Assembly: GCA_030710605.1 (NCBI GenBank)
Contig: CP092879.1
Coordinates: forward strand, 42,031,008-42,095,007
Direction: 5' to 3'
DNA: 64,000 nucleotides
From: Cordylochernes scorpioides
Lineage: Eukaryota; Arthropoda; Arachnida; Pseudoscorpiones; Chernetidae
Under the pieces are notes generated by a model. It was not told the origin of the DNA. It was given only the letters and a program-made list of their open reading frames with translations, and did not search any database. Each line of letters starts with the position of its first letter. The stretch's first letter is position 1. This document shows, piece by piece, positions 5,213-62,954 of this stretch. The position numbers were made by a program, and so were the translations under genes.

Positions 5213-5475
5213 ATCTATTCATATAAAATGAAAGGATTTAAAAGCACAAATGTTTCCTTTATACATAATAAAAACTTCTACTGCCCTCACTGCGATAAAA
5301 AGAATATATTGGGAGGGCTTGGCTCAGCAGTGGTGGACCCCCACTATATATCCCAATATATTTTTTCATCGCAGTAAGGGCAGTAGAAGTTTTTATTATG
5401 TATAAAGGAAACATAAGTGCTTTTAAATCCTTTCATTTTATATGTATAGATGGCGCGTTATTGCTTTGTGATAAT
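5213..5475. repeat. Family E palindromic element, copy 1
   Basis: Near-perfect inverted repeat: 5227-5330 against 5350-5450, both carrying ATGAAAGGATTTAAAAGCAC, CTTCTACTGCCCT and CTGCGAT blocks. The right side has an extra unpaired tail (TATAGATGGCGCGTTATTGC). ATATCTATT flanks both sides (5211-5219 and about 5473-5482), a possible short target duplication. The inner part retains only the CUGAUGA-type strand, mutated. Confidence 0.75.
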
Positions 5476-10929: not shown

Positions 10930-11790
10930 CCAATTGTCTCCCTCTTTTCCAAGCCAAGAATCATCCGTTTGCCATAGCAAAATTCTCAAGAGAATTCCCA
11001 TCTTCATTCTGCTTCAGGATAATTTAATTTGGGTATTTACTTTTTCCCATTATTTTCGACATCCCTGGCCTATCCTTAATCCACTTAGGTCCTGCTTCTA
11101 TAATTGGATGGATGGGTTAAGAGTCTGAATGAGCGTGACAATCGTCCCCAGTGCCATATGTAGACAGAGCTAAAGTACCAAGTTAGATTTATAACCAAAT
11201 TTGAGACTCGAAACTACTCCAAATTCTAATACAAGCATGAAGAAATAAAAATTACATTTCCATTAAGAATTCCTGAATATTTAATTCAATATAACCCACC
11301 CTCTTTGTCTCTTTGCTGATCAAATATTTATAATAATGGTAACCTAGATATAGTAGAAAGTTTTACCATTATCCTCCGCATTCTGAATTAGAAATTTGAG
11401 AATCTTCACTAGTAAACTAGCTGATGCTCATAAGTGTATTGCGTCTATAATCGCGCTGTTTATTTGAGAAACTTTAAATATTTATATTCAAATTAGAATT
11501 TTACAATAAAAGGCCTCACATATTAAAGACATACTGATCCGCAAAACTGTATATTTTAATAAAACGCTTTCTTTAATTAGGTAATAGTTATAAAATTTAT
11601 AATCATATTCTATATAATACACTTATCATAGTTTGGTTATATCTATTATACTTGTGTACAAATAATTATTTTCTTAAATAAAATTTTAAGGACGTCATAG
11701 TCCGAAAAAATGCTCGCCACGATTTTATAGCTTAAATAAAGAATCTCGTTTCCGTTAGCTTTTATTCTTTCTTCAAAATGATGTCTAGTG
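10930..11790. other. No recognisable feature
   Basis: AT-rich; small ORFs without recognisable similarity. Confidence 0.4.
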
Positions 11791-11794
11791 ATTC

Positions 11795-12045
11795 CTTCTC
11801 TTGTAATTTAAATATATTCTAAAATACCCATTCCAAGAGTTTAACAACAGTCACCTATAAAAGGAAGTTCCAAAAATGCAATATAACAGCGGTATGGTAG
11901 ATTAAACTGGCGAAACCGCTGGGAGGGTTCACCACTGATGAGCCAGGCCCTCCCTTTAATTTTTACATCGCAGTAAGGACAGTAGAAATTGTTTTATTTT
12001 AAAAAGAATATTACGCCTCTAAAATAGTTTTATAATTTGATATAG
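11795..12045 (+). repeat. Family E element, copy 2 (unit-length)
   Basis: Single-orientation copy. The 5' part (CATTCCAAGAGTTTAACAAC) is followed by the hammerhead-like module (11887-11954), TTTACATCGCAGTAAGGACA, GTAGAAATTGTTTTA and the ACGC(G)TCTAAAATAGTTT 3' part. It has the same block order as 35945-36205 and, inverted, 46232-46735. Confidence 0.75.
11887..11954 (+). ncRNA. Hammerhead-like module with scrambled strand order (family E)
   Basis: Blocks in order: CAGCGGT (11887-93), A at the cleavage position (11894), TGGT (11895-98), CTGGC (11907-11), GAAA (11912-15), ACCGCTG (11915-21), GGGAGGG (11921-27), ACCA (11931-34), CTGATGA (11935-41), GCCAG (11942-46), CCCTCCC (11948-54). CAGCGGT pairs with ACCGCTG (stem III), TGGT with ACCA (stem I) and CTGGC with GCCAG (stem II), reproducing every hammerhead core residue. 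The strands occur in the order cleavage, GAAA, CUGAUGA, so the three stems cross. Seen: sequence and pairing. Inferred: ribozyme function. Confidence 0.55.
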
Positions 12046-12129
12046 TATTTAGCTTGTAATATATAAACACAGATTGATGATGGATGTTGCTTATTATGCT
12101 ATTTTAAAACGCTCGCAATGGGTTTTATG

Positions 12130-12399
12130 CTGATTTTTATATGGTAATTGTTGTTGTCGGGTGTCCAATGAAGAGCCTTAGATGTCTCCATACATCTCTA
12201 TCACAGCAGTCATAATGTTCTCTATCTTGGGTGTGTTAAGCTGCTGTTCTGGGTCTGTATTAATTTTCTTCAAGACTTCGGCCATTGGTGAACATGAGAA
12301 TATGTGAATAGGTGTTAGTTCCATACCAGGGCAATTGTTGCATGTCCTGTAGGTTCTTGAGCTTTCTGGATGTATTGTCATTCCTTTATAGTGTTTCAT
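12130..12399 (-). pseudogene. LINE 3'-end fragment (C-terminal zinc-knuckle region)
   Basis: A 73-codon minus-strand ORF (12178-12399) encodes a Cys/His motif, CNNCPGMELTPIHIFSC, of the C-x2-C...H-x3-C type found at the C terminus of many RT/RNase H non-LTR retrotransposons. The ORF ends ...IEMYGDI. A 3' UTR-like GACACCCGACAACAACAATT sequence follows towards 12140. No RT is present upstream, so it is a 5'-truncated insertion or relic. I infer the LINE identity from the motif. Confidence 0.6.
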
Positions 12400-14484: not shown

Positions 14485-14546
14485 ATAATTCAATGTAAAT
14501 CAATTAAGGAGGATCAGAAGATGAGTTTCTTTTATTGTAAGAATGC

Positions 14547-14577
14547 TACAAGCTTTCGGGCAAAAGCCCTTCGACAG
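14547..14577 (-). ncRNA. Hammerhead-like motif in PLE1 left terminus
   Basis: Minus strand: CTGTCGA, AGGGC-TTTT-GCCC hairpin, GAAA, self-complementary AGCT, then TGTA. The layout follows a minimal type I hammerhead with a very short stem III, but core position 6 is U instead of A. The mirror copy near 17994-18030 has CTTTCGA and is more decayed. Hammerheads are known in PLE terminal repeats; activity of this variant is uncertain. Confidence 0.45.
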
Positions 14578-14728
14578 GCAAAAATATAACTATACAAATA
14601 AAGATAACGATTTATATATGTTAATCTTAACTGAAAACCGATTTTTGAATAAAGTAAATATTAAATCTGCTGTCTGAGACCACGAGACGGCGCATGGTTT
14701 GGGCTATTGAAATAAACATGTGGGAGGT

Positions 14729-15695
14729 TTAAATGTAGTTTGTGTAGGCTGCGGGGATATCTATTTTTCTATTTATGCTGTGTAGCTTGGATGAAACTAT
14801 GGATTCTAGAACCAATCTCTGGTGTAGGTTGGAGATATTTTTGTAGTGAATGGTTGGGTTAGCAGTGTCAAAGGAATGGCCAGAAGATGCAATGTGTTGG
14901 AAAATAAGGGAACGGGTATCTCGGTTGGTGATGTTGCGTGTGTGTTCGGTCATTCTGATGGCGATGGTTCTACCGGTCTCCCCCACATAGGTGGCAGGAC
15001 ACTGTTGGCACGAGACCGAGTAGACTGCTCCAGAAGATGTTAGAGGATCAGTGGAGGAGTCGGTTTTTGTGATGGGATGCCTAAGGAGTGAGTGGAGGTT
15101 AGGTGTGTTAGTAAAAAAGGTACGGATGCCAAAGGGTTTGAGGAAACGGGAGAGGTTAACTGAGAGGGGAGAGAATGGGATCACACATGTGGATTTGTAA
15201 GTTGCAGGAGGGTTGAGAGGAACAGGTGAATAGGTGTGTTTTTCTATGAAGGATAGAGGGAAACCTGAAATTGTAAGATGGGAGATGATGCGGTTCTTTT
15301 CAATAGTTTTGAAGATGGGGAGTGAGCAGTGGGTTAATAGGCGGCGGGTGAGGGCTTTAACTATATTGATTTTGTGGGAGGTTGGACAGTGCGACCTATA
15401 ATGGGTATATCTGGGGGGGTGGTTTTTCTTGTAGTAGACTGTGGTATGGTAGGTGTTTGGGGTGCGTATGACTAGGACGTCCAGGAAAGGAATAACAAGC
15501 TCATGTTCTCTCTCAAGAGTGAATGTGATGTTGGGATTGTAAGTGTGGAGGTCGGTGAAAATGGTATTCTCGCTGTCGGTTTTGCATACGCAGAAAATAT
15601 CGTCAACGTATCGACGCCAGAAGAAGATGTTTGAGGGTTGTCGGTTACAAATCCACTGGTCTATGGTAGACATCGTTATTTCAGACAAAATGGAC
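14729..15695 (-). pseudogene. Inverted partial PLE1 ORF: RT C-terminal part plus GIY-YIG
   Basis: Minus-strand open reading frame identical or nearly identical to the C-terminal ~320 residues of the plus-strand PLE1 protein. It begins just before the YVDD RT motif and runs through the GIY-YIG domain (VYSVSC...YVGETGR) to the same stop. It lacks the N-terminal RT motifs, so it cannot encode a functional RT. The near-identity of the two arms implies a recent insertion or recent gene conversion. Confidence 0.85.
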
Positions 15696-17845
15696 GTACC
15701 CAAAGACAATTACTACGCACCAGAACCAAAGGCTGCTATTCCAATATCAGATTCCTCAGCAAATCCATCAAAGGACTCATCTTTCTGATCACACAGAACA
15801 TGGACATCGCAATTCTCACCTCTTTCATAGAAAAAACCACAACAGACGTTAAGGCCCTGGAACAGAATACAAACCGCAAACATAACCAAAAACTGGAGTT
15901 TTGGTCCCGAAAATATGCTTTCCCTCTCCAACGTAGGAACACCGACCATGAGGTCCCCAATGTTATCAACCTGTCTGACATAACCCTATCACCAGCTGAA
16001 AACAGACTATTATCCAAAGGGCTAAAATACAGAATCCCAGCCAAAGTAGACACACCCCGACTCATTAGTGGAATAGAGGCCTCCATCAGAACCCTCTCCC
16101 ACCAAGACCAATGGACCATCAGGAATCAAGTAACCCACACCCTCCAACGACCGCTACCTCCACTCTCCGTGTCAAGATTAGAACACAAGATCATACGCAA
16201 ACTGAAATCCCAACGATCCATTGTCATTACCCGATCAGACAAGGGATCTGATACGGTTATCATCAACCAAACCGAATACCATACAAAAATGACAGACATA
16301 CTGAATGATACAACCACTTTCACCCAAATCTCCGCAGAAGAAAGCAAAGCAACGACCAAGAATTTCAGAGTTTCCCTCAACCGCATGAAACGCTCGGCCT
16401 CCATCACAATAGAAGATCACAAAAACTTCACCTCCAACATGGGAACTAATGCCTATATTTACGGCCTCCCCAAGATCCACAAACCATCCGTCCCCCTCCG
16501 TCCAGTCATCGCATACCACCTATCCCCTGCCTACCCCCTGGCCAAACACCTTACGAACCTTCTAACCCCTCTTTGGAATAATAACAGGAGAGCCTCCACG
16601 ACACCCAATTCCACCAGTTTCATACAGGATATAACAAACCTGCTCCCCCCTCCAAACTCATCCATGTGCTCGTTCGACGTATCTTCCCTATTCCTCAGCC
16701 TTCCACACAGCCTCATGATAGATAACCTCCACCAATTCCTTTCATCCATCCACACAGATACCACCATAGCCAACAACATCATCTCACTCACCAAAATCTG
16801 CCTGTGCATGAACACCTTCACCTATTCTCATACCCACTTTAAACAGATCAGGGGAACCCCAATGGGCAGCCCCCTCTCATCCATTTTGTCTGAAATAACG
16901 ATGTCTACCATAGACCAGTGGATTTGTAACCGACAACCCTCAAACATCTTCTTCTGGCGTCGATACGTTGACGATATTTTCTGCGTATGCAAAACCGACA
17001 GCGAGAATACCATTTTCACCGACCTCCACACTTACAATCCCAACATCACATTCACTCTTGAGAGAGAACATGAGCTTGTTATTCCTTTCCTGGACGTCCT
17101 AGTCATACGCACCCCAAACACCTACCATACCACAGTCTACTACAAGAAAAACCACCCCCCCAGATATACCCATTATAGGTCGCACTGTCCAACCTCCCAC
17201 AAAATCAATATAGTTAAAGCCCTCACCCGCCGCCTATTAACCCACTGCTCACTCCCCATCTTCAAAACTATTGAAAAGAACCGCATCATCTCCCATCTTA
17301 CAATTTCAGGTTTCCCTCTATCCTTCATAGAAAAACACACCTATTCACCTGTTCCTCTCAACCCTCCTGCAACTTACAAATCCACATGTGTGATCCCATT
17401 CTCTCCCCTCTCAGTTAACCTCTCCCGTTTCCTCAAACCCTTTGGCATCCGTACCTTTTTTACTAACACACCTAACCTCCACTCACTCCTTAGGCATCCC
17501 ATCACAAAAACCGACTCCTCCACTGATCCTCTAACATCTTCTGGAGCAGTCTACTCGGTCTCGTGCCAACAGTGTCCTGCCACCTATGTGGGGGAGACCG
17601 GTAGAACCATCGCCATCAGAATGACCGAACACACACGCAACATCACCAACCGAGATACCCGTTCCCTTATTTTCCAACACATTGCATCTTCTGGCCATTC
17701 CTTTGACACTGCTAACCCAACCATTCACTACAAAAATATCTCCAACCTACACCAGAGATTGGTTCTAGAATCCATAGTTTCATCCAAGCTACACAGCATA
17801 AATAGAAAAATAGATATCCCCGCAGCCTACACAAACTACATTTAA
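15638..17845 (+). CDS. Penelope-like reverse transcriptase / GIY-YIG endonuclease
   Basis: A 735-codon uninterrupted ORF. RT motifs: YGLPKIHKP near residue 278, motif A FDVSSLFLSLP (Asp347), TPMGSPLSS just before the fingers/palm end, and catalytic YVDD at 443-446. A linker of ~190 residues leads to the GIY-YIG endonuclease: VYSVSCQQCPATYVGETGR (Tyr639, Tyr650), then a conserved Arg and Glu (MTEHTRN). The first ~18 codons are antisense sequence of the inverted arm, so the annotated Met is artefactual; Met55 (15800) is the first in-frame Met in real PLE sequence. The 5' end of the natural ORF is probably missing. In PLEs the protein nicks target DNA and copies element RNA by target-primed reverse transcription. 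Base composition is distinctly more GC-rich than the flanks. Confidence 0.92.
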   Translation: MSVTNPLVYGRHRYFRQNGRTQRQLLRTRTKGCYSNIRFLSKSIKGLIFLITQNMDIAILTSFIEKTTTDVKALEQNTNRKHNQKLEFWSRKYAFPLQRRNTDHEVPNVINLSDITLSPAENRLLSKGLKYRIPAKVDTPRLISGIEASIRTLSHQDQWTIRNQVTHTLQRPLPPLSVSRLEHKIIRKLKSQRSIVITRSDKGSDTVIINQTEYHTKMTDILNDTTTFTQISAEESKATTKNFRVSLNRMKRSASITIEDHKNFTSNMGTNAYIYGLPKIHKPSVPLRPVIAYHLSPAYPLAKHLTNLLTPLWNNNRRASTTPNSTSFIQDITNLLPPPNSSMCSFDVSSLFLSLPHSLMIDNLHQFLSSIHTDTTIANNIISLTKICLCMNTFTYSHTHFKQIRGTPMGSPLSSILSEITMSTIDQWICNRQPSNIFFWRRYVDDIFCVCKTDSENTIFTDLHTYNPNITFTLEREHELVIPFLDVLVIRTPNTYHTTVYYKKNHPPRYTHYRSHCPTSHKINIVKALTRRLLTHCSLPIFKTIEKNRIISHLTISGFPLSFIEKHTYSPVPLNPPATYKSTCVIPFSPLSVNLSRFLKPFGIRTFFTNTPNLHSLLRHPITKTDSSTDPLTSSGAVYSVSCQQCPATYVGETGRTIAIRMTEHTRNITNRDTRSLIFQHIASSGHSFDTANPTIHYKNISNLHQRLVLESIVSSKLHSINRKIDIPAAYTNYI

Positions 17846-18119
17846 ACTTCCCACATGTTTATTTCAATAGCCCAAACCATGCGCCGTCTCGTGGTCTCAG
17901 ACAGCAGATTTAATATTTACTTTATTCAAAAATCGGTTTTCAGTTAAGATTAACATATATAAATCGTTATCTTTATTTGTATAGTTATATTTTTGCCTTT
18001 CGAAGGGCTTTTGCCCGAAAGCTTGTAGCATTCTTACAATAAAAGAAACTCATCTTCTGATCCTCCTTAATTGATTTACCTTACTAGAAGAGTCTTTACC
18101 TTTAATAATTCAATGTAAA

Positions 18120-21165: not shown

Positions 21166-21432
21166 ATGCTGTATTGTAGTTGTTTATATACATTACTATT
21201 AACACAAAGCAATAACGCGCCATCTATACATATAAAACGAAAGGATTTAAAAGCACGAATGTTTCTTTTATACATAATACAAACTTATACTGTCCTTACT
21301 GCGATGAAAAATGTAATTCTACTGTCCTATAAGCTTATGTCCAGAAGTTTCTTGAAAACCATTTCTGAGATGCCATCGTTCATTGCTGCGTATATAAGCA
21401 GAATCGTCCAATTCAGTATTAGAGCTCTGAGA

Positions 21433-21499
21433 AGCGGTCTGGTGGATTAAATTGGCGAAACCGCTGGGAGGGTTCACCACTGATGAGTCAAGCCCTCCC
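21433..21499 (+). ncRNA. Hammerhead-like module with scrambled strand order (family E)
   Basis: AGCGGT (21433-38), C at the cleavage position (giving GUC), TGGTG (21440-44), TTGGC (21452-56), GAAA (21457-60), ACCGCT (21460-65), GGGAGGG (21466-72), CACCA (21475-79), CTGATGA (21480-86), GTCAA (21487-91), CCCTCCC (21493-99). Stem I is 5 bp here, stem III 6 bp, and stem II 5 bp with one G-U. It differs from the 11887 copy at paired positions in stems I and II in a pairing-preserving way. Confidence 0.55.
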
Positions 21500-22864: not shown

Positions 22865-23055
22865 TCCCGGTATCTTCTAGAGGTGGTCTCTTTTTAAATA
22901 TCGATTCATATCAGGTCATCTTAATTTTTGATTAGAGGTGGCTGTTCGCAAGAAGAATCTCGTTGTGATTGTTTGGCTACAACTATTAATATGTGATCAT
23001 AATAATAATGATAATATATTTTGGTTAAAAGGATAACAATGTGAAAAGAATAGTA
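22865..23055 (+). repeat. Direct repeat copy 1 flanking PLE2
   Basis: CCCGGTATCTTCTAGAGGTG through GTGAAAAGAATAGTA is essentially identical to 26589-26782. The two copies lie on either side of PLE2 and of one arm of the family B foldback. They therefore derive from a larger duplicated or inverted B-type element that PLE2 later interrupted. Confidence 0.85.
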
Positions 23056-23565
23056 AAAAGCTATAAAACGAAGAGAAAAATTCTTTTATTAAAATGCATA
23101 GGCTACTAGCTTTCGGGCTCCAAGCCCTTTCACAGGTACAACGTATTGTGAGAAACTAACGCTATATATAGAATCGATATGCGATGAATCTGCATATTTT
23201 AACTATGTATGAGGCAACGATATCAAATTAAGATATGGAAAGAAGGCTTTTTAGAAATATTTAACAAATATAGGATATGATAATTGATAAAATTATGAAA
23301 GATTTAGCATACTATTAATAGAACTATTGCGAAATAAAATAAAATAAACTAAAAATAAAAATAATAAGATAACGCGTGATCATCTCTGGATGCCAAACAA
23401 CTGAAAAATACCATACACACCGTGACGCTAAAAAGTATAAACAGAGAGGAAAACAGGTTTGACCCGCCATCAGCGTAATCCTCGGATTATGAAAAATAGG
23501 GGTCGGGAGGGGGGGGGGGGTTATGCGGGTGGTTATGGCAAGATCAGGGGAGTGAAGTGGCCGGC

Positions 23566-25348
23566 CTAAAGATTATTACATATGTCTAGGTACTGTATTG
23601 GTATATCAATATGTCTGTTAATACTGTTGTTACTGATGGATAAAACTGCTTCGATAATTAACCTTTGATATTTATTGTTGATATTAGAGTATATGGTGGT
23701 AGGGGAGGATAGATTGAATGAGTGGCCAGTGGTGTCTATATGGTTGAAAATAAGGGATCTGTTGTCTTTGTTGGTAATGCATCTACCGTGCTCAGTCATC
23801 CTGATGGCTACGGACCTACCAGTCTCGCCTATGTAAGACGCGCTGCAATCGTTACATGAGACTGAGTAGACCGAGCCACCCGAGGACTGAGCAACGGTAG
23901 ATCTAGGTAGTCTGGTAATAGGATGTCTGAGGATGGCGCCAATACTATTGCTATTAGAGAAATAGGTGTTGATCCCGTGTGATCTGAGGATGCGGGAGAT
24001 GGCGACTGATTGGGTGGAGAAGGGCAAAAGACAACTGCTTCTGCTGACTGTAGCAGGCCTAACGGAAAGAGGGTTATATCTATATTTATGTATAAAATGG
24101 GGGAGGGTATTGGGATAGGGCCAGCTGTTTTATGATTAGGGAAAATTCAATAGTTCTGAATAGGGGAAGGGAGCAGTGGGTGACCAATCTCTTGGTAAGC
24201 GTTCGAACAGTATTTATTTTATGCGATAGGGGGCTTGAAGAATTGAAGTCTGTGTAGAATGTGGGATTAATAATCTTGTGATATACGGTAGTGTGATAAT
24301 GGGAGGAAGTACGTATAACAAGTATATCTAGAAACGGCAATACAGATCTGTCCTCCAATTCTAAACTGAATGAAATTTCCGGATGATAGGAGTTAAGACA
24401 ATCTAAAATACTTATTTCCTGTCCGGTATCACATATGCAGAAGATATCATCAATATATCTCCGCCACATGTGAATGCCCGGTGTGATTTGCTGTTGGATC
24501 CAGTGGTCAATGGTGGCCATGACTATTTCTGCAAGGGGGGAGGATAGCGGGCTGCCTATGGGCGAGCCCCTGATTTGTTTGAAATACAGGTTGTTAAAGG
24601 TGAAAGTAGTGAAGTCTAAACATAGGGAGGACAGTGCGATTATGGATTCAATGGTATGGGGATCTACGTGGTTATCCTGCAAGAATGTTGTCAAGTGGCT
24701 AATGATGAGCTGGTGGGGGAGGGAAAGATACATGGAAATAACATCATAAGATACCATAACGGAGTTGGGAACAGGACTGAGGGAATTAACTGATTGCACA
24801 AAGGACGGGATATCCCTTATGGCAGAGGACTGTGGGCTGGCTTTCACCAAAGGTGTGAGCCAGCTAGACAGATATTTAGATAGTTTGTAGGCAGGGGAAA
24901 GGTGGTAGGCTATGATGGGACGTAGGGGTATGCCAGGCTTATGGGTCTTGGGAAGTCCGTAAATATAGGGAACATTGCCAAGATCGGAAATGAAAGTACT
25001 ATATTGAACCGGAGTGATATGACCTGACTTTTTAAATCGCAATAGCTTTAATCTGAATGATTTAACGGAGGTGGATACCTCAGACTGTGCAATGGGGATA
25101 AACGTGGTGTTGTCACTGAGTATTTCCATCATCTTGGAGGTATAGTCAACCGTGTCCAAGATGACGGTCTGGGAACCTTTGTCAGACCGGGTGACTACAA
25201 TGTTTGAGTTTCGCCTTATGGAGCTAAGGGAGCGGTACTTACCAAGAGATCGGGACTGTGGGGGGGTAGGCTTCCGGAGGATTTGGGCTATGGAACTGCG
25301 TATGTCATACTGGGATGTGTGGGAAAGGGAGCTGATGGCGGGCTCCAC
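23566..25348 (-). pseudogene. PLE2 reverse transcriptase / GIY-YIG, frameshifted
   Basis: The RT part is 24086-25348 (420 codons): YGLPKTHKP, motif A YDVISMYLSLP, SPIGSPLSS and catalytic YIDD at residues 298-301. The GIY-YIG part is 23566-24027 (VYSVSCNDCSASYIGETGR, then MTEHGRC). The two are in different frames. A single-base indel near 24090-24105, in a C/T-rich stretch, separates them; the linker reads through in the second frame. The RT also lacks the N-terminal segment present in PLE1. As it stands it would yield RT without endonuclease. Confidence 0.88.
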
Positions 25349-25369
25349 TCCAGAGATGATCAGTCGCCA

Positions 25370-25803
25370 TCTCCCGCATCCTCAGATCACACGGGATCAA
25401 CACCTATTTCTCTAATAGCAATAGTATTGGCGCCATCCTCAGACATCCTATTACCAGACTACCTAGATCTACCGTTGCTCAGTCCTCGGGTGGCTCGGTC
25501 TACTCAGTCTCATGTAACGATTGCAGCGCGTCTTACATAGGCGAGACTGGTAGGTCCGTAGCCATCAGGATGACTGAGCACGGTAGATGCATTACCAACA
25601 AAGACAACAGATCCCTTATTTTCAACCATATAGACACCACTGGCCACTCATTCAATCTATCCTCCCCTACCACCATATACTCTAATATCAACAATAAATA
25701 TCAAAGGTTAATTATTGAAGCAGTTTTATCCATCAGTAACAACAGTATTAACAGACATACTGATATACCAATACAGTACCTAGACATATGTAATAATCTT
25801 TAG
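25370..25803 (+). pseudogene. Inverted GIY-YIG fragment of PLE2
   Basis: Plus-strand mirror of 23566-24003, with GIY-YIG motif remnants and the same C terminus (...YLDICNNL). One difference from the other arm is I to T in NRH(I/T)DIPI. A frame disruption lies before 25570. It is part of the inverted arm and not an independent gene. Confidence 0.8.
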
Positions 25804-26231
25804 GCCGGCCACTTCACTCCCCTGATCTTGCCATAACCACCCGCATAACCCCCCCCCCCTCCCGACCCCTATTTTTCATAATCCGAGGATTACGCTGATG
25901 GCGGGTCAAACCTGTTTTCCTCTCTGTTTATACTTTTTAGCGTCACGGTGTGTATGGTATTTTTCAGTTGTTTGGCATCCAGAGATGATCACGCGTTATC
26001 TTATTATTTTTATTTTTAGTTTATTTTATTTTATTTCGCAATAGTTCTATTAATAGTATGCTAAATCTTTCATAATTTTATCAATTATCATATCCTATAT
26101 TTGTTAAATATTTCTAAAAAGCCTTCTTTCCATATCTTAATTTGATATCGTTGCCTCATACATAGTTAAAATATGCAGATTCATCGCATATCGATTCTAT
26201 ATATAGCGTTAGTTTCTCACAATACGTTGTA

Positions 26232-26266
26232 CCTGTGGAAGGGCTTGGAGCCCGAAAGCTAGTAGC
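26232..26266 (+). ncRNA. Hammerhead-like motif in PLE2 right terminus
   Basis: CTGTGGA, AGGGC-TTGG-AGCCC hairpin, GAAA, self-complementary AGCT, then AGTA; UAC upstream can pair with GUA downstream as a short stem I. The left-arm copy (23102-23136, minus) reads CTGTGAA. Position 6 is U instead of A, as in PLE1. Confidence 0.45.
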
Positions 26267-26366
26267 CTATGCATTTTAATAAAAGAATTTTTCTCTTCGT
26301 TTTATAGCTTTTTACAATTCATTAAGAGAAATTTCGTCAATCTAATTAAAAGTGAAAAGAATAGTA

Positions 26367-27829: not shown

Positions 27830-28795
27830 TAGATATTGAAAAGAAAGAAGTTAGGCCATCCTTGGACTATGTATTAAAGAAAAAGAAGTTAGACCAGCCT
27901 TGAACAAGGTATTGAAGAGAAAGAAGTTAGACCATCCTTAGACAAGGTATTAAAGAGAATGAAGTTAGACCAGCCTTGGACAAGGTAATAAAGTGTAAGA
28001 AGTTAGACCAATCTTGGACAAGGTATTAAAGAGAATGAAGTTAGACCAGCCTTGGACAAGGTAATAAATAGTAAGAAGTTAGACCAATCTTGGACAAGCT
28101 ATTAAAGAGAAAGAAGTTAGACCAGCCTTGGACAAGGTATTAAAGAGAAAGAAGTTAGACCAGCCTTGGACAAGGTATTAAAGAAAAAGAAGTTAGACCA
28201 GCCTTGGACAAGGTATTAAAGAGAAAGAAGTTAGACCAATCTTGGACAAGGTTTTAAAGAGAAAGAAGTTAGACCAACCTTGGACAAGGTTTTAAAGAGA
28301 AAGAAGTTAGACCAACCTTGGACAAGGTTTTAAAGAGAAAGAAGTTAGACCAACCTTGGACAAGGTTTTAAAGAGAGAGAAGTTAGACCAATCTTGGACA
28401 AGGTTTTAAAGAGAAAGAAGTTAGACCAACCTTGGACAAGGTTTTAAAGAGAAAGAAGTTAGACCAACCTTGGACAAGGTTTTAAAGAGAAAGAAATTAG
28501 ACCAACCTTGGACAAGGTATTAAAGAGAAAGAAGTTAGACCAGACTTGGACAAGAAAATAATGAGATTCAAGTTATACCAGCTTTGGATTAAATTTCAAA
28601 TTGGAAAAAAAGTTATACCAGCCTTGGAAAAGGTATAAAAGAGAAAAAATTGACCAGGCTTTGCCTAGTTATGAAAAATAGAGAAGTTTTATATGAACTA
28701 GTCTTGGACAAGGTAGTAAAAAGCAAGAAGTTAGACCAACCATGGACAAGGTATTAAAGAGAAAGAAGTGAGACCAACCTTGGACTAGGTAATAA
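27830..28795. repeat. 38-bp minisatellite
   Basis: About 25 tandem units of AGAAAGAAGTTAGACCAACC, TTGGACAAGGTTTTAAAG (38 bp). The central block (28205-28520) is nearly homogeneous and the edges are more diverged, a pattern expected from unequal exchange. No CRISPR-type spacers occur. Confidence 0.95.
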
Positions 28796-28799
28796 ATCA

Positions 28800-29050
28800 G
28801 AAAGAAGTAAGTCCAGGATTAGGCCAGGTCCTACAGAAGAAGGAAAGAGAGGAGTCCAGCACCCAGACTGCTGTATAAAGTAGGCCAACCAGAACTGTGA
28901 ATAAACACGGACCCTCAAATAAAACTCCAGAAATACCGGGAACAATGCAGGTCCCAGGACCCTGTTGACAACTTATAGAGAAGTCCTCCAGCTGACACCT
29001 CTTTTGTTCTCTTTTTCAATATATCGAAAAAAGGTTTAGAGCGGGTTCAT
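28800..29050. other. GC-richer unique segment
   Basis: Follows the minisatellite. Short purine-rich stretches; no convincing exon or splice sites. Confidence 0.3.
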
Positions 29051-31681: not shown

Positions 31682-32142
31682 CAAAGTTGTCCCAAAAGTT
31701 CGTAAACACTTGAAAAATATAAATCATAATATTATGATGCATTAGCGCGCCATCTGTTATCAAAATTCGAAACTATTATAGACGCGTTTGATTCTTTTTA
31801 AAATAAACAATATCTACTGTCCTTACTGCAATGGAAAAATTAATGGGAGGGCCTGGGATGTTCCTCGCTGATGGACTTAGCATTTGGCAAAATGCAAAAT
31901 TCCTTCAAATTCCAAAAAAAAAAGAACAGGAATCTTTTTCAAAGTAATATTCAAAACCTTTTTCCAACCATATTCTTTTGACTATTTCTAGTATAAACTG
32001 ATGAGCCAAGCCTTCCTATTAATTTTTCCATTGCAGTAAGGACAGTAGATATTGTTTATTTTTTAAAAGAATCATACGCGTCTATAATAGTTTCAAATTT
32101 TGATAAATCATAATATGTTTACGAACTTTTGGGACAACCTTG
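31682..32142. mobile_element. mariner-type MITE, cluster copy 3, interrupted by family E
   Basis: Left end CAAAGTTGTCCCAAAAGTTC at 31682 and right end GGGACAACCTTG to 32142, with TA on both sides. The interior is split by the family E insertion at 31733-32102. Confidence 0.85.
31719..32116. mobile_element. Family E palindromic element, copy 4, with 14-bp TSD
   Basis: Inserted into a MITE with the perfect 14-bp duplication ATAAATCATAATAT (31719-31732 and 32103-32116). Arms: AATTCGAAACTATTATAGAC...GGGAGGGCCTGG and the inverted form to GTTTCAAATTTTG. A 28-nt tail with GCATTAGCGCGCCATCTG lies on the left only. The loop is a ~135-bp copy of the sequence at 30845-30984. The scrambled hammerhead is truncated; only the CUGAUGAGCCAAG strand remains. 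Confidence 0.9.
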
Positions 32143-33224: not shown

Positions 33225-34643
33225 CACTGCGTGACATTGAAAATGGAACACCAAGAAATAGTGGCCAGAAAATTATGCAAATTTCAGGGTAGACGCGCCT
33301 AACCGAGTTATACAAATGATGTAAAATGCGCAGCTCTCGTGCGCACATGGAGTAAGATATAAGGGAAGGAACTTGCAGAAAGGACAGTATTCGTGTCGTT
33401 ATTTCTTCAAGGAAAATCATTGTAGAAATTTTGTTCTTGTGTCAAAAGACACGTGTAATAACAGAGAATGCCAGGTCATCGTAAACGGAGGCAGTTCAAG
33501 CAGACAGACGCTTTTACGAGGGGCATGGTGATCGGACTGAAAAGGGCAGGTTGGTCCATACGTCAAATCGCAGCTGATACACACCTTGGTGCGTCCACGG
33601 TGCACCGACTGTGGAGAAGATGGTTGGAACAAGGAAATGTGGCAATTTATAGGAATGCCGGTGCAACCAGAGTGACGTCAGCACGTGTGGATCGGCGTAT
33701 CCTTCGACAAGCAGTGGCGGCCCCACAAGCCACTTGTACCGCCATCCTGCAACATGTGCAAGACACCCTAGATCATTCCATCTCGACCAGAACCATTTCC
33801 CGTCGATTGGTTGCTAATGGCTTGCACTCATGCCGTCCGCTAAGAAGACTGCCATTGACCCCACCGAATAGGCGCCAACGTTTGGAATGGTGCCGGGCTA
33901 GATCGACGTGGATGACGGAATGGCACAGGGTCGTGTTCTCAGATGAGTCGCGTTTCTGCTTGTCCAGTGATAGTCGCCGTGTACGCGTGTGGCGTCGACG
34001 TGGAGAAAGGTCCAATCCGGCAGCAATTGTGGAACGCCCCACCGTGCGACAACGTGGAATCATGGTTTGGGGAGCAATCGCGTATGATTCCAGGTCACCT
34101 TTACTTCGTATTCAGGGCACTATGACGGCCCAACGATACGTTGATGATGTGCTGCTACCGGTGACACTCCCCTACCTTCAGGGGGTACCCAATGCCCTTT
34201 ATCAGCAGGATAACGCCCGACCGCACACTGCTCGCATTAGCCAACAAGCTCTGCAAGATGTACAGATGCTTCCCTGGCCACCGTACTCTCCTGATCTCTC
34301 ACCAATCGAGCACGTCTGGGACATCATTGGACGCCGTTTGCATGCCTTGCCACAGCCGCGTTCAGAAGACGAACTGTGGCAAATGGTTGAGAGGGAATGG
34401 AGAGCCATCCCTCAGGACGCCATCCATACTCTGATTGACTCTCTACCTAGACGTGTTGCTGCGTGCATCGCCGTCCGCGGTGGTCTTACTTGCTACTAAG
34501 CCGACGCCGTTCTCGCTCTGTATTATGACTATCATTTTGAAATAAATATCACTTATTGTTCGTCCCTGCCTCTCTCTGTCTGCCGAGTTTCATCACTTTC
34601 TGGCCACTATTTCTTGGTGTTCCATTTTCAATGTCACGCAGTG
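33225..34643 (+). mobile_element. Complete Tc1-like transposon
   Basis: 1,419 bp with 47-bp perfect TIRs (33225-33271 and 34597-34643; CACTGCGTGACATTGAAAAT at the tip) and TA on each side (33223-24 and 34644-45). A single intact transposase lies inside. It interrupts the left 13-bp target duplication of the family A element at 34647-34939, so it is younger than that element. It is GC-richer than its surroundings, which suggests recent arrival. Confidence 0.96.
33468..34499 (+). CDS. Tc1-family transposase, apparently intact
   Basis: 343 codons, Met to stop. The N-terminal helix-turn-helix (about 14-52, KRAGWSIRQIAADTHLGAST) and a second DNA-binding part (to about 125) are followed by the catalytic domain: Asp159 in FSDESRF, Asp248 in YQQDNARPHTA, Glu281 in SPDLSPIEHVWD. 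By my count 32 residues separate the second Asp and the Glu, two fewer than the usual Tc1 DD34E. The ORF length is typical. The start is the first ATG after the TIR. It acts by cut-and-paste at TA sites, binding the 47-bp TIRs. No frameshift is visible, so the copy may be active. Confidence 0.95.
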   Translation: MPGHRKRRQFKQTDAFTRGMVIGLKRAGWSIRQIAADTHLGASTVHRLWRRWLEQGNVAIYRNAGATRVTSARVDRRILRQAVAAPQATCTAILQHVQDTLDHSISTRTISRRLVANGLHSCRPLRRLPLTPPNRRQRLEWCRARSTWMTEWHRVVFSDESRFCLSSDSRRVRVWRRRGERSNPAAIVERPTVRQRGIMVWGAIAYDSRSPLLRIQGTMTAQRYVDDVLLPVTLPYLQGVPNALYQQDNARPHTARISQQALQDVQMLPWPPYSPDLSPIEHVWDIIGRRLHALPQPRSEDELWQMVEREWRAIPQDAIHTLIDSLPRRVAACIAVRGGLTCY

Positions 34644-34939: not shown

Positions 34940-35024
34940 CATTAATATATATAAACTTTGCTAGATACGAGTTCTCTTGGATCAATGCAGACAATATTGT
35001 TACTCTGAAATTATATATATGTAC

Positions 35025-35250
35025 CTCTACAGACCTATAAGCTTATGTCCATAGTCCACTAAACACCCCTAAGCTGCCTTCCATAGAAAATGCAGGGTAT
35101 ATCCCAAACCAAACCAATACAATAGTAGAGCGGTCTAGAGATTAATTTGGCGAAACCGCTGAGAAGGTTCACTACTGATGAGCCAAGCCCTCTCATTCAA
35201 AAACTCATATCATTGCTATAAGGTATGTAGAAATAATATTTGATGATATT
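35025..35250 (+). repeat. Family E element, copy 5
   Basis: Plus-strand unit: CTATAAGCTTATGTCCATAG near the 5' end, module at 35129-35194, then a mutated GCTATAAGGTATGTAGAAAT. It carries compensatory changes in the module. Confidence 0.7.
35129..35194 (+). ncRNA. Hammerhead-like module with compensatory changes (family E)
   Basis: AGCGGT (35129-34), C (cleavage, GUC), TAG (35136-38), TTGGC (35147-51), GAAA (35152-55), ACCGCT (35155-60), GAGAAGG (35161-67), CTA (35172-74), CTGATGA (35175-81), GCCAA (35182-86), CCCTCTC (35188-94). Relative to other copies, stem I changes from UGG/CCA to UAG/CUA, and the extra helix changes from GGGAGGG/CCCTCCC to GAGA.GG/CC.TCTC; both keep pairing. Confidence 0.55.
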
Positions 35251-35254
35251 CAAA

Positions 35255-35940
35255 AGAAACGAAGTGACAGTAAATTTACTTGTGTAAAATTATAACGATA
35301 GATGGCAATCAAATTTATAAATTTAATTCTATCTGTAATATTGAAATGCTGGGTATTAGAGTAAAATATGTGCTACATATTCAACGATTTGTGCTTAAAA
35401 AGAAGCGAACAAACATCAAAGTGATCTGTTTGAGCCATGATAGCAATAAAGACATAGGTAAGTGATGCGGATAGATTCACAGAGAGCCCAATAACTGGAC
35501 ATGACGGAATAATTCAGCGTAGCATAAGTTCATCGAGCCGTGTCTCTCTCTTCCTTTATTATTATTTCATTTTGTCGCTGTATTAGATTATTATATGACA
35601 TTTTCTCTCTTAAATCATTTCTATATTTCCTCTATAAATAGGTAAATGCCTTTCTTAAATAATAATATGAGGTAAGGTTTATGATATGAGGAATGTTGTA
35701 TCACAACGGATAGAGAATACATAAGTTAAATGGTGATTTACCACTTATATTCAAATACGTTAATTTTTAACATTAAATATACATACAACTTCAAATAAGC
35801 TTAGATTAGAATTAATAGAAGATATTGCCTTTTAAATTGAATAATAAAGTGAAATACGCGCGTGTTTGTAGGACTACACACATATTTGAATATCGTTTCA
35901 TAACTATGCTGAAGAGATACAGCTTGAAGAATGAAGTATA
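35255..35940. other. No recognisable feature
   Basis: AT-rich sequence between two family E copies. Confidence 0.35.
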
Positions 35941-35944
35941 GGCA

Positions 35945-36205
35945 TTTCTACTGTTCTCAAATATTATGTCCACAGTTCATTATAAATACCTTTCCCAAGA
36001 GTTTAGCTTCAGTATTGGTGTAAAAGCGAAACAGCCCAATACAATATTACAACGGTTTGGTAGATTAAACTGTCGAAATCGTTGGAAGGCTTCCCCACTT
36101 ATGAACCAGGCCCACCCATTAATTTTTCATTGCATAAGTGGTGAATTGAATTGGTCAGTAGAAAATTGTTCTATTTTAAAAAGAATCATACGCGTCAAAA
36201 ATAGT
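35945..36205 (+). repeat. Family E element, copy 6
   Basis: Plus-strand unit: TTATGTCCACAGTTCATTAT, CCAAGAGTTTAGCTTC, module 36050-36116 (decayed: CUUAUGA in place of CUGAUGA), then AAAAGAATCATACGCGTCAA. Stem III still pairs with covarying bases (CAACGGT with ATCGTTG). Confidence 0.7.
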
Positions 36206-36206
36206 T

Positions 36207-36275
<69 letters not shown>

Positions 36276-37004
36276 GAATGTCTGTATGTGTGTGTGTGTG
36301 TCCTCTATGGATTCAAAAACCATACATCCAATCGCCGTGAAATTTTGGGATATTATTAGGTGTATCCCCGGAAAGGTTTACGAAAAATAATTTCTTGAAT
36401 ATCTTTAATATCCTTAGAGTTATTTGCAGATTTGTAGCTTTAACTCGCAAGCAGCGCCACCTTGCGACGGAGATAGGCTTAGGTCTGCCCCACCCCGTGA
36501 GAGAATGGATTCGTCCGGCCGCCGGCCGACAGTCCAAGTACCCACCGACCAATCAGGGCAGAGTTAGTGACACAGCTGTGCCAAGTAGACAAGAAAAAAA
36601 GCCTCGCGGGAGCTTGCCCAAGATGACCTCCGGGAACTTCGTCCATCTTCCATAAACGACCATGAATTTATTCAACCTTATCGAGTATTTTTCAAGGGAC
36701 TGGGAAAGAAAATTAGGAAAGACAAAATTCAGAATGACACGGCACACAGGGACCGGGAAAAAATGATCACTTTATCAGTTTCAAATTATCAAAATATATC
36801 TATTTCTTTTTATAAGTTTATAGAGAATTGTTTTAACAAATGTTCGTTAGACAGACCTTTACTCGGGTACCGATTAATATTGATTTTATTCAACTTATCG
36901 AGTATTTTTCAAGGGACCGGGAAAAAATGTTCACTTTATCGAGAGATTCGTTAGACAAACCTTTACTCGGGTAAAACACGGGCGAAGCCGGGTACATCCG
37001 CTAG
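36206..37004 (+). mobile_element. Non-autonomous Helitron with expanded (TA)n start
   Basis: Body blocks CATACATCCAATCGCCGTGA, CCCGGAAAGGTTTACGAAAA and CTTGCGACGGAGATAGGCTT match the 21541 Helitron. It ends with a GGGC-GAAGCC-GGG hairpin and CTAG at 37001-37004 before T. The expected TCTATATATA start has become a ~65-bp (TA)n microsatellite (36208-36272). No ORF. Confidence 0.8.
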
Positions 37005-45179: not shown

Positions 45180-45740
45180 AATTAAAATTATACCGCGAAT
45201 GTTTCTTTTAAAAATCGAAATTTATTTTCAATTTTAATATCACATTAACACTATTTTTTTCACAAATCAAAATTGAATATACCGAATTCGAATATGTTTG
45301 AATACAATGTCATTTGGATTATATTGTTTTTAAGAATGGAGTTAGCATCCAAAAGGAATACAATATACAAAATATATGACTTCAGCGCCCCATCTATATT
45401 TAGGTAAAGAAACAATTGAACGATATTTGTTTACTATTCAAATAAAACAATTTTATTCTGTTCTTTACTGTTATAGACAAATATTGAGACAGCCTGGCTC
45501 ATCAAGGATGAATCTTTCCAGCCAAATACAATATTTGAATGGTCTGTCAGAAAAGAAAAGATGAAAGCCACTGTTTTTCACCACTGAATAGCCACCCACT
45601 CCCAATATATTCAGTTTCATAATCAATAGATCCTATTTTATTATATTCTATTGAAACTATATTCATTATATTTCGATATTTTTAGCAAAATATATGAAAG
45701 ATTTGATATTAATTGATAAAGGTGAGTATATAGCAAATGA
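45180..45740. repeat. Degenerate family E sequence (45385-45620) in AT-rich DNA
   Basis: CAGCGCCCCATCTATATTTA, ATTCTGTTCTTTACTG and GCCTGGCTCATCAAGGATGA are decayed E blocks. Otherwise nothing. Confidence 0.4.
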
Positions 45741-45744
45741 AAAC

Positions 45745-46030
45745 AATTAGACGTTAATGTTTCTTTCACACATATATCGAACTTCTACTGTCCTTATTGA
45801 GATGAAAATAATATTGGGAGGTTTATCAGTGGTGAAACCTCCATAAGTATTCTCCAATTTAATCTACCAGACCGCTTCTTGAGAGCTCTAATACTGTATT
45901 TGATTATTCTGCTTATATATGCTACACTAAAGGGTGGAATCTCAGAGATGTTATTCAAGCAAACTATGTTCATAAGATTTTAGGACAGTAGAATTACACT
46001 GAAATACAAGGTGAGTATTACTGTACACTG
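45745..46030 (-). repeat. Family E element, copy 9
   Basis: Minus strand: GGACAGTAGAATTACA-type end at 45990-46010, decayed module (GAAGCGGTCTGGTAG, TTGGAGAATAC, CACCACTGATAAACC) and CTTCTACTGTCCTTATTG at the other side. Confidence 0.65.
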
Positions 46031-46084
46031 ATCATTTGAAATAAAGATATTTTCGCATAGTTCCAAGAAGCACTTTTTTTGTAG

Positions 46085-46231
46085 TTAAAGTATACCTATA
46101 TATAAAGTTGGAATCCTCTGATAAGTATAAGTAAAGTATATGAAGCGGACGAGGATACTTTTCTTATTATTTTTTTTTTTAAAGAAAAGTATCCTCGTCC
46201 GCTTCATATACTTTACTTAAAGTATACCTAT
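46085..46231. mobile_element. Family K palindromic element with 15-bp TSD
   Basis: The element is 46100-46216 with a perfect 15-bp duplication TTAAAGTATACCTAT (46085-46099 and 46217-46231). Arms of 34 bp (GTAAAGTATATGAAGCGGAC...) are perfectly complementary around a poly-T-rich loop (46165-46182). A 31-nt unpaired tail (46100-46130) lies on the left. Confidence 0.9.
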
Positions 46232-46735
46232 GATAATTCGAAGCTATTTTAGACGCGTAAGATTCCTTTTGAAATTAAACAATTTCTACTGCCCTTACTG
46301 CAATGGAAAATTAATGGAAGGGCCTGGCTCATCAGTGGTGAACCCTCCCAGCGGTTTAGCCAGTTTAATCTACCATACGGCTGTTATATTGCATTTTTCG
46401 TATCAATTATTCCGCCTTCTACAAGCTTTCAGGTAAGCTTTTTAAGGCACATAAAAAGACACAGGACAACATCTAGACGACACGTGCAAACAGCCCGCCG
46501 AATCTGGTACAGCGCGCCGCCTGCGAAGGAACCAAGGACGCACCAAGCACACCTAGAGCCCGAAGCCCCAAGGCGGCAAAAATAGTGACCACGAGGGTCG
46601 AAACTTCATCTAGGAGTATATTATTGCATTTTTCGATATTCCTTTTATAGCGATACTGATGCTAGACTCTTGGAATGAGTATTTTAGATTAACTATGGAC
46701 ATAAGCTTTGAGGACAGTAGAATTACATACAATTA
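46232..46735 (-). repeat. Family E element, copy 10, with a nested insertion
   Basis: Minus-strand unit: GACGCGTAAGATTCCTTTTG, TTTCTACTGCCCTTACTGC, module 46316-46383, then CTTGGAATGAGTATTTTAGA and GGACAGTAGAATTACAT at 46715-46732. Interrupted at 46401-46622. In the module GAAA has become UAAA and stem III has one mismatch, so it is probably dead. Confidence 0.75.
46388..46635. mobile_element. GC-rich 222-bp insertion with 13-bp TSD
   Basis: The insert 46401-46622 is flanked by perfect ATTGCATTTTTCG (46388-46400 and 46623-46635). The left end carries CTACAAGCTTTCAGG, matching the PLE1 terminal motif read inverted (CTACAAGCTTTCGGG). The right end carries GACC-ACGA-GGGTC hairpin plus GAAAC and ATC, hammerhead-like. 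The interior is GC-rich and non-coding. I infer another PLE-type non-autonomous element. Confidence 0.75.
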
Positions 46736-46799
46736 TAAATATATAATATGCTTCCAGAAATCGCTCTTCCGCAAATATCAAATTGAGTCTTTTATTAGA

Positions 46800-46895
46800 A
46801 CATTTATATTATGATTCACTAGCACGCCATCTGTTATGAAAATTCGAAACTATTTTAGACTCGTAAGATTCTTTTTTAAATTAAACGTAGACCTA
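46800..46895 (-). repeat. Family E fragment, copy 11
   Basis: ATTCACTAGCACGCCATCTG tail and the AAAATTCGAAACTATTTTAG ACTCGTAAGATTC arm; ends where the long-TIR mariner begins. Confidence 0.65.
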
Positions 46896-48218
46896 TATAA
46901 CCTACAGGGTGATCCAAAAGTCCCGCACAACTTTAAAAATTAATAACTCCGCGAATATTTGCGCTAGAGCAATGCGGTAAACACCATTGTGTTCAAGATG
47001 CAATGGGATTTTTTTATGGCAAATAATGAAAAATTCGAAATTGATTTTAGTTACAACATTATTCGCTAGATGGCGCTCTACCAGAATCAGAGATTCAGCG
47101 GCCAAATTGTTTGATAAATTGAAAAATATAACTGAACGACACGTATTTTTCCTTTTTGAATGCCAGGAAAGAACCCTAATAATATCAAATGATAAATTAA
47201 TAAAACACCATTTCGCCAAAAGTTAGAAGAATTGGTTGACGATTTTTAAATACAATCTGAGATATGTAAAATAGGTATATGCAAATTAAAACATGTAGCA
47301 AAAAATATTTATATTTTAGATGGAGTTTTGTGAAATAGATTGAATGTTTGAAAATAACTACTGATATCAATGCACGATTTATGAAATGTTAATATAGTAC
47401 CAAAAATTATGATGGCACTACTAATAGGATTTCGTGCTGTAAGGAATGTATAGTTTCTTGACTAATTGGCGCCACTTGACTATTCAACTGGATATTTGTC
47501 ATGATCCAAAAATGAAATATAGAGGGGATTGACAAAATATATTTGTCGTACTTTATTCCAAATATCCTATGGGCTTGTCAAATGTTATCATTGTTTATTA
47601 TACTGTAATTTTGCAAATGTATCCCCTAAAAAAATCATTTTTAAATCGACCTTTTGTGTTGAAAAACGTGGTATTAAAATCATTTTGCATTATTTTTTGC
47701 GCAAAATTTCTAAAGTTGGGGGGGGATACAGAGAATATTCCTTATGCTATTTCTTCTAATGAGCGAGAAGCGATAAACTAAACATAAGGGGTAAAATTGT
47801 GTATACCAGTTTTATTCGAGAAGTTATAACACTTTGGCCTGAACGACATAATATAAAATGTGGGCAAATGACAAACAAAAAAATTGCTGTTTACAGAAAA
47901 AAAAAAAGAGTCAAGATGTGAGGACAGCATTTATTATTCCCATAACCCAAAACAAAGAGCTGCAAAATATAACACATGAGGTAACTGCTTTCTCTCTTGT
48001 ATTAGGTCACAATCCTTGCTCAATGTGGCGCCCTTCATTCTCAAACACCGCCTGCAGACGATAGATGACAGAATGGTCACAATTAAATAGTTGAAATTTA
48101 TAAAACGTGCCATCTGATAGAAGCCTTCAACATGGCCAATGTGGTAGGCCGGCATCGATAAAAACGCGACTTAATGTACCCCCATAACCGAAATTGTAAG
48201 GCGTTAAATGGCGACTTA

Positions 48219-58370: not shown

Positions 58371-58530
58371 TATATATATTTATATTAAAAATGGCATATC
58401 CTGACCAGGAGCACATGTGCTTTACAGAAGGCAGAGCGCCATCTGGTTGAACAGAAATCAACTAAACATTGATTTAGCCTGTTCCCTGATATTTGGCCAA
58501 CCCAATTTCTTGATAAATCAAGAAAATCCA

Positions 58531-58572
58531 TCCACGAACGCGTTTCGCGCTTTTGGCGCTCGTCAGCGTGGA
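58531..58572 (-). ncRNA. Type I hammerhead ribozyme core (family A)
   Basis: Minus strand, 42 nt: TCCACG, CTGACGA, GCGC-CAAAA-GCGC (perfect stem II), GAAA, CGCG, TT, CGTGGA. Stem I is 6 bp (TCCACG/CGTGGA). Stem III is minimal (ACGCGT, self-complementary, favouring dimeric folding). Cleavage is predicted after GUU, between 58537 and 58536. All invariant core residues are present; H17 is U, less usual than C. Confidence 0.75.
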
Positions 58573-58876: not shown

Positions 58877-58918
58877 TCCACGCTGACGAGCGCCAAAAGC
58901 GCGAAACGCGTTCGTGGA
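58877..58918 (+). ncRNA. Type I hammerhead ribozyme core (family A)
   Basis: Same 42-nt module on the plus strand: TCCACG 58877-82, CTGACGA 58883-89, GCGC-CAAAA-GCGC 58890-58902, GAAA 58903-06, ACGCGT 58906-11, cleavage predicted between 58912 and 58913, CGTGGA 58913-18. Metazoan hammerheads with tiny self-complementary stem III are known in retrozymes and PLEs. Confidence 0.78.
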
Positions 58919-60389: not shown

Positions 60390-60663
60390 TTAATAGGTTG
60401 TAAGAAATTTGACCTATTTTTGTGAGACACGCGTATGACTTCTTTAAAAAAATAATAATAAATTTTCTACTGACGTTACTGCAATGATAACATATTGGGA
60501 GGGTTCACCACTGATGATCCAGGCCCTCCCATTTTTTTATCATTGAAGTAAAATATTGCAGTAAGGGTAGTAGAAATATATTTATTTTAAAAGAAACATA
60601 CGCGTCAAAAATTTCAAATTTCTTATAAAAGATGGCGCACTAATATATCATATTAATAGGCTG
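60390..60663. mobile_element. Family E palindromic element, copy 12, with ~11-bp TSD
   Basis: Arms TAAGAAATTTG...ACGCGTATGA...TTTCTACTG and the inverse; loop with GGGAGGGTTCACCACTGATG, ATCCAGGCCCTCCC. The right tail (AAAGATGGCGCACTAATATA) is one-sided. TTAATAGGTTG (60390-60400) and TTAATAGGCTG (60653-60663) flank it, 10/11 identical. Confidence 0.75.
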
Positions 60664-62862: not shown

Positions 62863-62954
62863 TTACACATAGTACAAAATAATTTGTAAACATAAAATAG
62901 GCGTTATTGTTAATATCTAAAATATTCACACCTTACGATTATACGAAACATCCT

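Follow-up and report, generated by a model that had tools for sequence, protein, structure and literature searches.

The window, a stretch of 64,000 nucleotides from the genome of the arachnid Cordylochernes scorpioides (2.62 Gb in 24 contigs), contains six copies of a repeat, named here family E, all of which align as one family (c1 to c6, at 11887, 21433, 35129, 36050, 46316 (-) and 45814 (-), respectively). A pair check identified a complete hammerhead core in three of these six copies, with its strands in the order cleavage strand, GAAA, CUGAUGA. An earlier note had read a three-strand core with crossing stems and a short linker between stems I and II from the letters of this DNA, and this arrangement is the one known as type SGC, which has been shown in vitro (PMC10085705, as far as its available text goes). 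The copies, together with the parts of c1, are located as follows:

11887-11954, plus strand: complete type-SGC core of subfamily E1 (c1), with all core nucleotides and 22/22 pairs
11888-11898, plus strand: block S of c1 (sequence and pair check), composed of the stem III strand AGCGGU (11888-11893), H17 = A (11894) and the stem I strand UGGU (11895-11898)
11894/11895, plus strand: predicted cut of c1 (sequence and pair check)
11907-11920, plus strand: block G of c1, composed of the stem II strand CUGGC, GAA and the stem III strand ACCGCU
11921-11927, plus strand: 5' strand of the fourth helix of c1, GGGAGGG
11931-11946, plus strand: block C of c1, composed of the stem I strand ACCA, CUGAUGA and the stem II strand GCCAG
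11948-11954, plus strand: 3' strand of the fourth helix of c1, CCCUCCC
21433-21499, plus strand: complete type-SGC core of subfamily E2 (c2), with its predicted cut at 21439/21440
35129-35194, plus strand: complete type-SGC core of subfamily E3 (c3), with its predicted cut at 35135/35136
36050-36116, plus strand: related copy with a broken core (c4), CUUAUGA replacing CUGAUGA
46316-46383, minus strand: related copy with a broken core (c5), UAA replacing GAA, and one mismatch in stem III
46622-46728, minus strand: head matching c5, with other sequence in between
45814-45878, minus strand: related copy, strongly decayed (c6)

Read from 5' to 3', c1 to c3 contain block S (a stem III strand, U-H and a stem I strand), block G (a stem II strand, GAAA and the other stem III strand), one strand of a fourth helix, block C (a stem I strand, CUGAUGA and a stem II strand) and the second strand of the fourth helix. 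U16.1-H17 closes block S in the three copies (H17 being A, C and C, respectively) and both GAAA and CUGAUGA are intact in them, the conserved core being incomplete in c4 to c6. All 22 pairs are formed in c1 and c2, and c3 has one mismatch and one gapped pair. Stem I has 4 bp in c1 and 3 bp in E3, c3 included, and is longer in c2 if G-U pairs are counted; the linker between stems I and II is of about 8 nt, and stem III and the fourth helix are joined by 0 nt. The blocks, the order and the coordinates given in the earlier note for 11887-11954, 21433-21499 and 35129-35194 were all confirmed by the sequence and the pair check. Its count of at least four good copies is reduced to these three, because 36050-36116 carries, besides CUUAUGA, one mismatch in stem I, two in stem II and three in the fourth helix. 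One of the two decayed inverted copies that it listed stands at 46316-46383 (-), and the core of the other, placed at 45808-45890, actually occupies 45814-45878 (-). The coordinated pair changes that it described are present in the sequence, although those taken from 36050 belong to a copy with a broken core, and the fourth helix that it quoted for c3, GAGAAGG/CCCUCUC, contains one A-C mismatch; other members of the c3 subfamily have GAGAGGG/CCCUCUC, which is fully paired. A further place, 32886, was found by a loose word search and is not a family E copy. c1 scores 101 bits against a model, R1, that was built from these same copies. Rfam 15 gave no match on the window at gathering score. When the limit was relaxed to an E of 10, family E was still not matched by any ribozyme model, two weak miRNA models falling on its palindromic copies. 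To our knowledge, the hammerhead models of Rfam span the classic strand orders only.

This arrangement exceeds what chance would give. With at least 4 bp in each stem and a span of up to 140 nt, the window contains 2 SGC arrangements, and 60 dinucleotide shuffles of it gave 0 SGC and 2 SCG arrangements in total. When the segments of c1 to c3 were shuffled 20,000 times each (stems I/II/III of at least 3/4/5 bp), no hammerhead of any order was obtained, even though both core words were present in 139, 400 and 533 of these shuffles for the respective segments.

Family E elements are composed of a head, a TATA-like box, a CA site, a leader of 15-25 nt, the ribozyme and a tail. The head (TTCTACTGTCCT..AAGCTTATGTCCA) is present at 5 places in the window (0.00 expected) and the tail (GCAGTAAGGRCAGTAGAA) at 12 places (0.05 expected), one of which is a head on the other strand. 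The TATA-like box is clear in c1, c2 and c6 and weaker in c3 and c4. Two of these boxes, and the sites of a further word, are located as follows:

11856-11880, plus strand: putative TATAAAAG box with a CA start-like site 24 bp downstream (motif reading)
21391-21415, plus strand: putative TATATAAG box with a CA start-like site 24 bp downstream (motif reading)
2705, 5448, 21217, 31747, 34824, 47068, 57780, 58436, 58660, 59005, 60630 and 62779: AGATGGCGC sites

The putative start of c1 lies 15 nt before the predicted cut, and the CA start-like site of c2 lies 25 nt before it. AGATGGCGC, which follows the tail in several family E copies and which we take to resemble the CTCF binding core, occurs 12 times in the window (0.08 expected), in the context of family E tails (4), of repeats related to canonical hammerheads (6) and of another repeat (2). 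No ORF of at least 150 aa was found over c1 to c6, and the 371-bp unit described below is too short to code for a reverse transcriptase.

The window also contains two Penelope-like elements, and both these and several family E copies show inverted layouts:

14492-18082, plus strand: Penelope-like element with a reverse transcriptase ORF (15638-17845, +) and an inverted partial copy on its 5' side
23045-26323, minus strand: second Penelope-like element, with a reverse transcriptase ORF (24086-25348, -) and the same layout
21197-21311, minus strand: inverted partial copy (3' tail) adjoining the head of c2
60398-60628, plus strand: palindromic 5'-truncated copy, composed of an inverted tail, the fourth-helix hairpin with CUGAUGA in its loop, and a tail
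5213-5451, minus strand: palindromic 5'-truncated copy of similar layout
31757-32106, plus strand: inverted pair of tails (31757-31856 / 32006-32106)

A reverse transcriptase domain was identified in both Penelope-like elements by Pfam, which returned no GIY-YIG domain at threshold in either of them (some relatives carry it), and the best relatives of the 15638-17845 protein are from Cordylochernes scorpioides itself (two of them with 95% identity over 91% of the query and 99% over 50%, respectively). The arms of the first element (14492-15694 / 16880-18082) are 99.75% identical over 1,203 nt and those of the second (23045-24010 / 25359-26323) are 99.4% identical over 966 nt, and such near-identical inverted 5' partial copies suggest a recent insertion with a fold-back step. 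The inverted layout is also found at four family E loci (5213, 21277, 31757 and 60398) and in the canonical hammerhead repeats at 58382, although no inverted E pair is present at the E loci in 11700-12200, 34950-36300 and 45400-46950. The palindromic copies at 60398-60628 and 5213-5451 have the fourth-helix hairpin near their centre, altered in the second of them, and short palindromic copies of this kind could derive from cDNA folding back on that hairpin. In addition, a hairpin followed by GAAGC or GAAAGC, a motif that was defined post hoc, is shared by tandem E units and by the Penelope-like elements, where it lies near the 3' end, its position relative to AATAAAAG differing between both groups. 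Since the inverted layout and the hairpin-GAAGC motif are shared, mobilisation of family E by a Penelope-type mechanism appears likely from the sequences compared.

Several other features were recorded in the window. Two small canonical type I (CGS) hammerheads form an inverted pair, at 58878-58917 (+) and 58532-58571 (-), in which the stem III strand ACG adjoins CGU with no loop; Rfam assigns both to HH9, below the cut-off, and they presumably resemble the minimal type associated with Penelope elements. At 44971 (+), CTGACGA is directly followed by AACGCGTACGTGG, perhaps a decayed canonical hammerhead that lacks stem II. There is also an open Tc1-like transposase ORF of 343 aa (33468-34499, +), a U6 snRNA-like sequence (62917-63009, -; 37.7 bits against an Rfam cut-off of 44) that is perhaps a pseudogene, and a tandem array of 25.7 copies of a 38-bp unit (27834-28815).

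A stem-neutral core pattern, in which GAAA, TTC and CTGATGA are fixed and the stems are free, has 48,761 + 48,424 = 97,185 matches in the genome, compared with 3 for the reversed control. A DNA search of the genome with the 68-nt core gave no match, by a method that passes over very frequent words, and the core is frequent by the pattern count. The complete core (at least 4 bp in stem II, 5 bp in stem III and 3 bp in stem I, with at least 6/7 pairs in the fourth helix) was found in 11 of the first 30 loci and in 6 of 8 within 264 contiguous kb, which by rough extrapolation, the 30 loci being neighbours on one contig, would amount to tens of thousands of complete cores. Seven of the 30 loci (L022, L025, L030, L036, L041, L043 and L048) belong, by an exact word, to a further subfamily, E4, in which GAAA and CUGAUGA retain their family E frame and the stem II pairing is lacking; no pairing cleavage strand was found within 40 nt upstream in E4. 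Neither of the two core patterns had any match in viral contigs, nor did a scan of prokaryote genomes give any; the single match of the tail word to a viral contig (L001) was taken as chance. Among the first 100 places of the pattern, three direct-repeat loci were picked because their direct copies lie close together. Two of them contain direct repeats spaced 371 and 372 bp, with a core in every unit; the first pair is 100% identical across 300 nt and the second 98% across 166 nt, and the third, spaced 376 bp, has 85% identity over 103 nt and joins different subfamilies. Tandem units of a few hundred bp, with a hammerhead in each, are present at 3/3 of the loci so chosen, whereas none of the 15 places with a CUGAUGA block in the 264 kb has a 371-bp tandem neighbour (0/15), so dimers are a minority in that region.

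Pairing in the core is supported by changes on both sides of its helices. In the six window copies 88.9% of the pair cells are paired, a value that 0/500 shuffles reach and for which slid controls give at most 52.5%, and every one of the four helices contains a single pair in which both bases have changed. A wider set was composed of 28 of 46 distinct rows from the same genome, after removal of 5 rows of subfamily E4 and 13 that were truncated or had no block S. These 28 rows contain 26 two-sided cells, compared with 11.4 +/- 3.3 in shuffled sets (reached by 0/500 shuffles; at most 11 with slid strands), and have a covariation score of 0.194 compared with 0.149 (again 0/500). Two other measures on the same rows are not above shuffles, namely the number of pairs changed two-sidedly (7; 196/500, and 9 at slide -2) and that of further pair types (22; 348/500). 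The rows are kin, and the main two-sided changes separate the subfamilies: stem II is CUGGC/GCCAG in E1 and UUGGC/GCCAA in E2, and E3 has UAG/CUA in stem I and GAGAGGG/CCCUCUC in the fourth helix. Covariation events are therefore few, yet stems I and II, which cross, each have some of them. In nine of ten copy pairs the core is also more conserved than the remainder of the element, and in the tenth equally so; between c1 and c3, for instance, identity is 85% in the core and 47% elsewhere in the element. The predicted nested fold of c1 and c2 consists of two adjacent hairpins that correspond to stem III and the fourth helix, with fold z values of -2.48 (c1), -3.44 (c2) and -1.36 (c3), and of -0.80 and -0.60 for the broken c4 and c5. 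Fold energies cannot score crossing stems, and stems I and II would be two loop-loop helices between both hairpins, a geometric reading whose pairs lie outside the scoring of the program.

If cleaved RNA is reverse-transcribed, it should give copies that start right after H17. Starts were counted in the whole genome with flanks of A/T only, groups of copies sharing the same flank, so that a count does not equal a number of independent insertions. Right at the cut there are 127 starts with T before and 557 with A before, and one nucleotide further in there are 38 with A before. Set side by side, 127 and 38 speak for the cut rather than for the position downstream of it. As a sign of cleavage in life, 557 against 38 is weakened by the T-flank control of 127: most of the excess with A seems to come from copies, many of them E1, whose start lies one or two nucleotides upstream of the cut. 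In E2, a single copy, present in five overlapping loci and surrounded by AT-rich DNA, begins precisely at the cut, and 10 starts lie one nucleotide upstream of it, 7 of which have T before C.

Judged from its sequence, the motif is a real, conserved type-SGC hammerhead residing in an animal repeat, the activity of its copies being predicted. Family E is most probably a high-copy non-autonomous retroelement with a candidate type-SGC ribozyme just downstream of its promoter, which would process the RNA of the element. Transcription would start at the TATA/CA site, 15-25 nt before the cleavage site, and stem III and the fourth helix would each form a hairpin in the RNA, with pairing between both loops, at two places, giving stems I and II. 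An ordinary hammerhead core would thereby be built from the cleavage, GAAA and CUGAUGA strands, and would cut after H17. In a head-to-tail dimer (unit of about 371 nt), two such cuts could free a single unit whose ends would allow it to circularise, a route proposed for retrozymes, and the likely mobiliser would be the reverse transcriptase of the co-resident Penelope-like elements.

Alternatively, as the earlier note also considered, the core could act only between tandem units, the GAAA of the first unit combining with the cleavage strand and CUGAUGA of the second to give a nested hammerhead. This is improbable: tandem units do exist and the strand order permits such a combination across two of them, but a single core has all three strands inside some 60 nt, compared with hundreds of nucleotides between units, and tandem pairs are rare near the window. 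Moreover, for cores joined end to end, folding into the nested form costs 9.0-19.7 kcal/mol relative to the free fold (-47.7 vs -60.1 in c1, -48.0 vs -67.7 in c2 and -33.0 vs -42.0 kcal/mol in c3), a free fold that is itself also devoid of stems I and II. The fourth helix, which shows two-sided changes, joins the arms only if a single core is read, and the published type-SGC RNAs cut as single cores (PMC10085705, in its available text).

Slightly less probable still is that the ribozyme was active in an ancestor and that the motif is now merely inherited, with no role. The complete core is indeed missing in 3/6 window copies and in 19/30 loci (under the pairing thresholds given above), and E4 is common though it has no cleavage strand. 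On the other hand, two-sided changes in stems I and II and in the fourth helix split E1, E2 and E3, which argues that pairing was kept while these subfamilies arose, and the tandem units of one locus (L053) are identical over 300 nt and have intact cores, so at least some intact copies look young. As for a chance likeness, in which promoter or repeat hairpins happen to carry hammerhead-like words, the two hairpins by themselves do account for the nested fold, but 0/60,000 local shuffles, the two-sided changes in the crossing stems and an order and helices that match an experimentally tested class (PMC10085705, available text) make it very improbable.

The earlier note knew of no description of this connectivity, which had been published in March 2023 as the type-SGC non-circularly permuted hammerhead, with the same order and the fourth helix (Eckert et al. 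2023; PMC10085705); the connectivity is therefore that of a known class and not a new fold. According to the available text of that paper, cleavage in vitro was shown for five examples, one of which, SGC-3, was probed in all four helices with disrupting and compensating mutations. The 583 predicted sequences of the set come from metatranscriptomes and other environmental sequences with no named host, and none is reported there in the genome of a known organism. Family E shares with type SGC (HRIMA-1 and variants) the order, the conserved core, the crossing stems I-III and the fourth helix that ties I and II. In a few members, as in family E, the fourth helix follows stem III directly, and this zero-length joint is one that the authors find hard to square with the known structure. 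It differs in its linker between stems I and II (about 8 nt compared with typically, although not exclusively, 3), in stem I (3-4 bp compared with 5 in HRIMA-1) and in its carrier, a nuclear repeat of an arachnid, whereas type SGC was published with no genome of a known organism (PMC10085705, in the same text). No earlier report of type SGC in an animal genome was found in the open-access literature, among the matches listed. As far as these matches show, family E adds to the known class a location in a genome, an animal as host, a copy number and a tandem unit. A named animal with very many DNA copies supplies both a host and a genetic context, along with natural variants in which the folding of a pseudoknotted core can be tested, and it makes approachable the question of whether environmental type-SGC RNAs could in part be animal retrozymes.

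As far as the available parts of the respective papers show, the non-LTR retrozymes of metazoans are, like some family E copies, short tandem units with a hammerhead in each and no LTR, and Penelope-like elements have been proposed as their mobilisers, as is done here for family E (PMC7761336). Those retrozymes carry type I hammerheads and measure about 150-300 bp, whereas family E carries type SGC in a unit of about 371 bp that is in tandem in some copies (PMC7761336). Penelope-like elements with minimal type I hammerheads, described in the same parts of two papers, are co-resident with family E in the window, and partial copies beside full ones, which are inverted in the window, are tandem or partial-tandem in those papers (PMC7761336, PMC11167929). 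Within the window, family E and the Penelope-like elements have in common the hairpin-GAAGC motif and AATAAAAG near their ends; they differ in that family E is too short to code for a reverse transcriptase and in its SGC order, compared with the CGS (type I) order at 58532 and 58878. It seems somewhat more plausible than otherwise that a chelicerate swapped the type I hammerhead of retrozyme or Penelope-type elements for the pseudoknotted type SGC, which was then multiplied to tens of thousands of copies. Family E would in that case be the first type-SGC ribozyme family encoded in a genome, and small circular type-SGC RNAs would have an animal source. These observations bear on how non-circular permutations arise, and the presence of CGS and SGC hammerheads in similarly laid-out elements of one genome makes the origin of the permutation testable.
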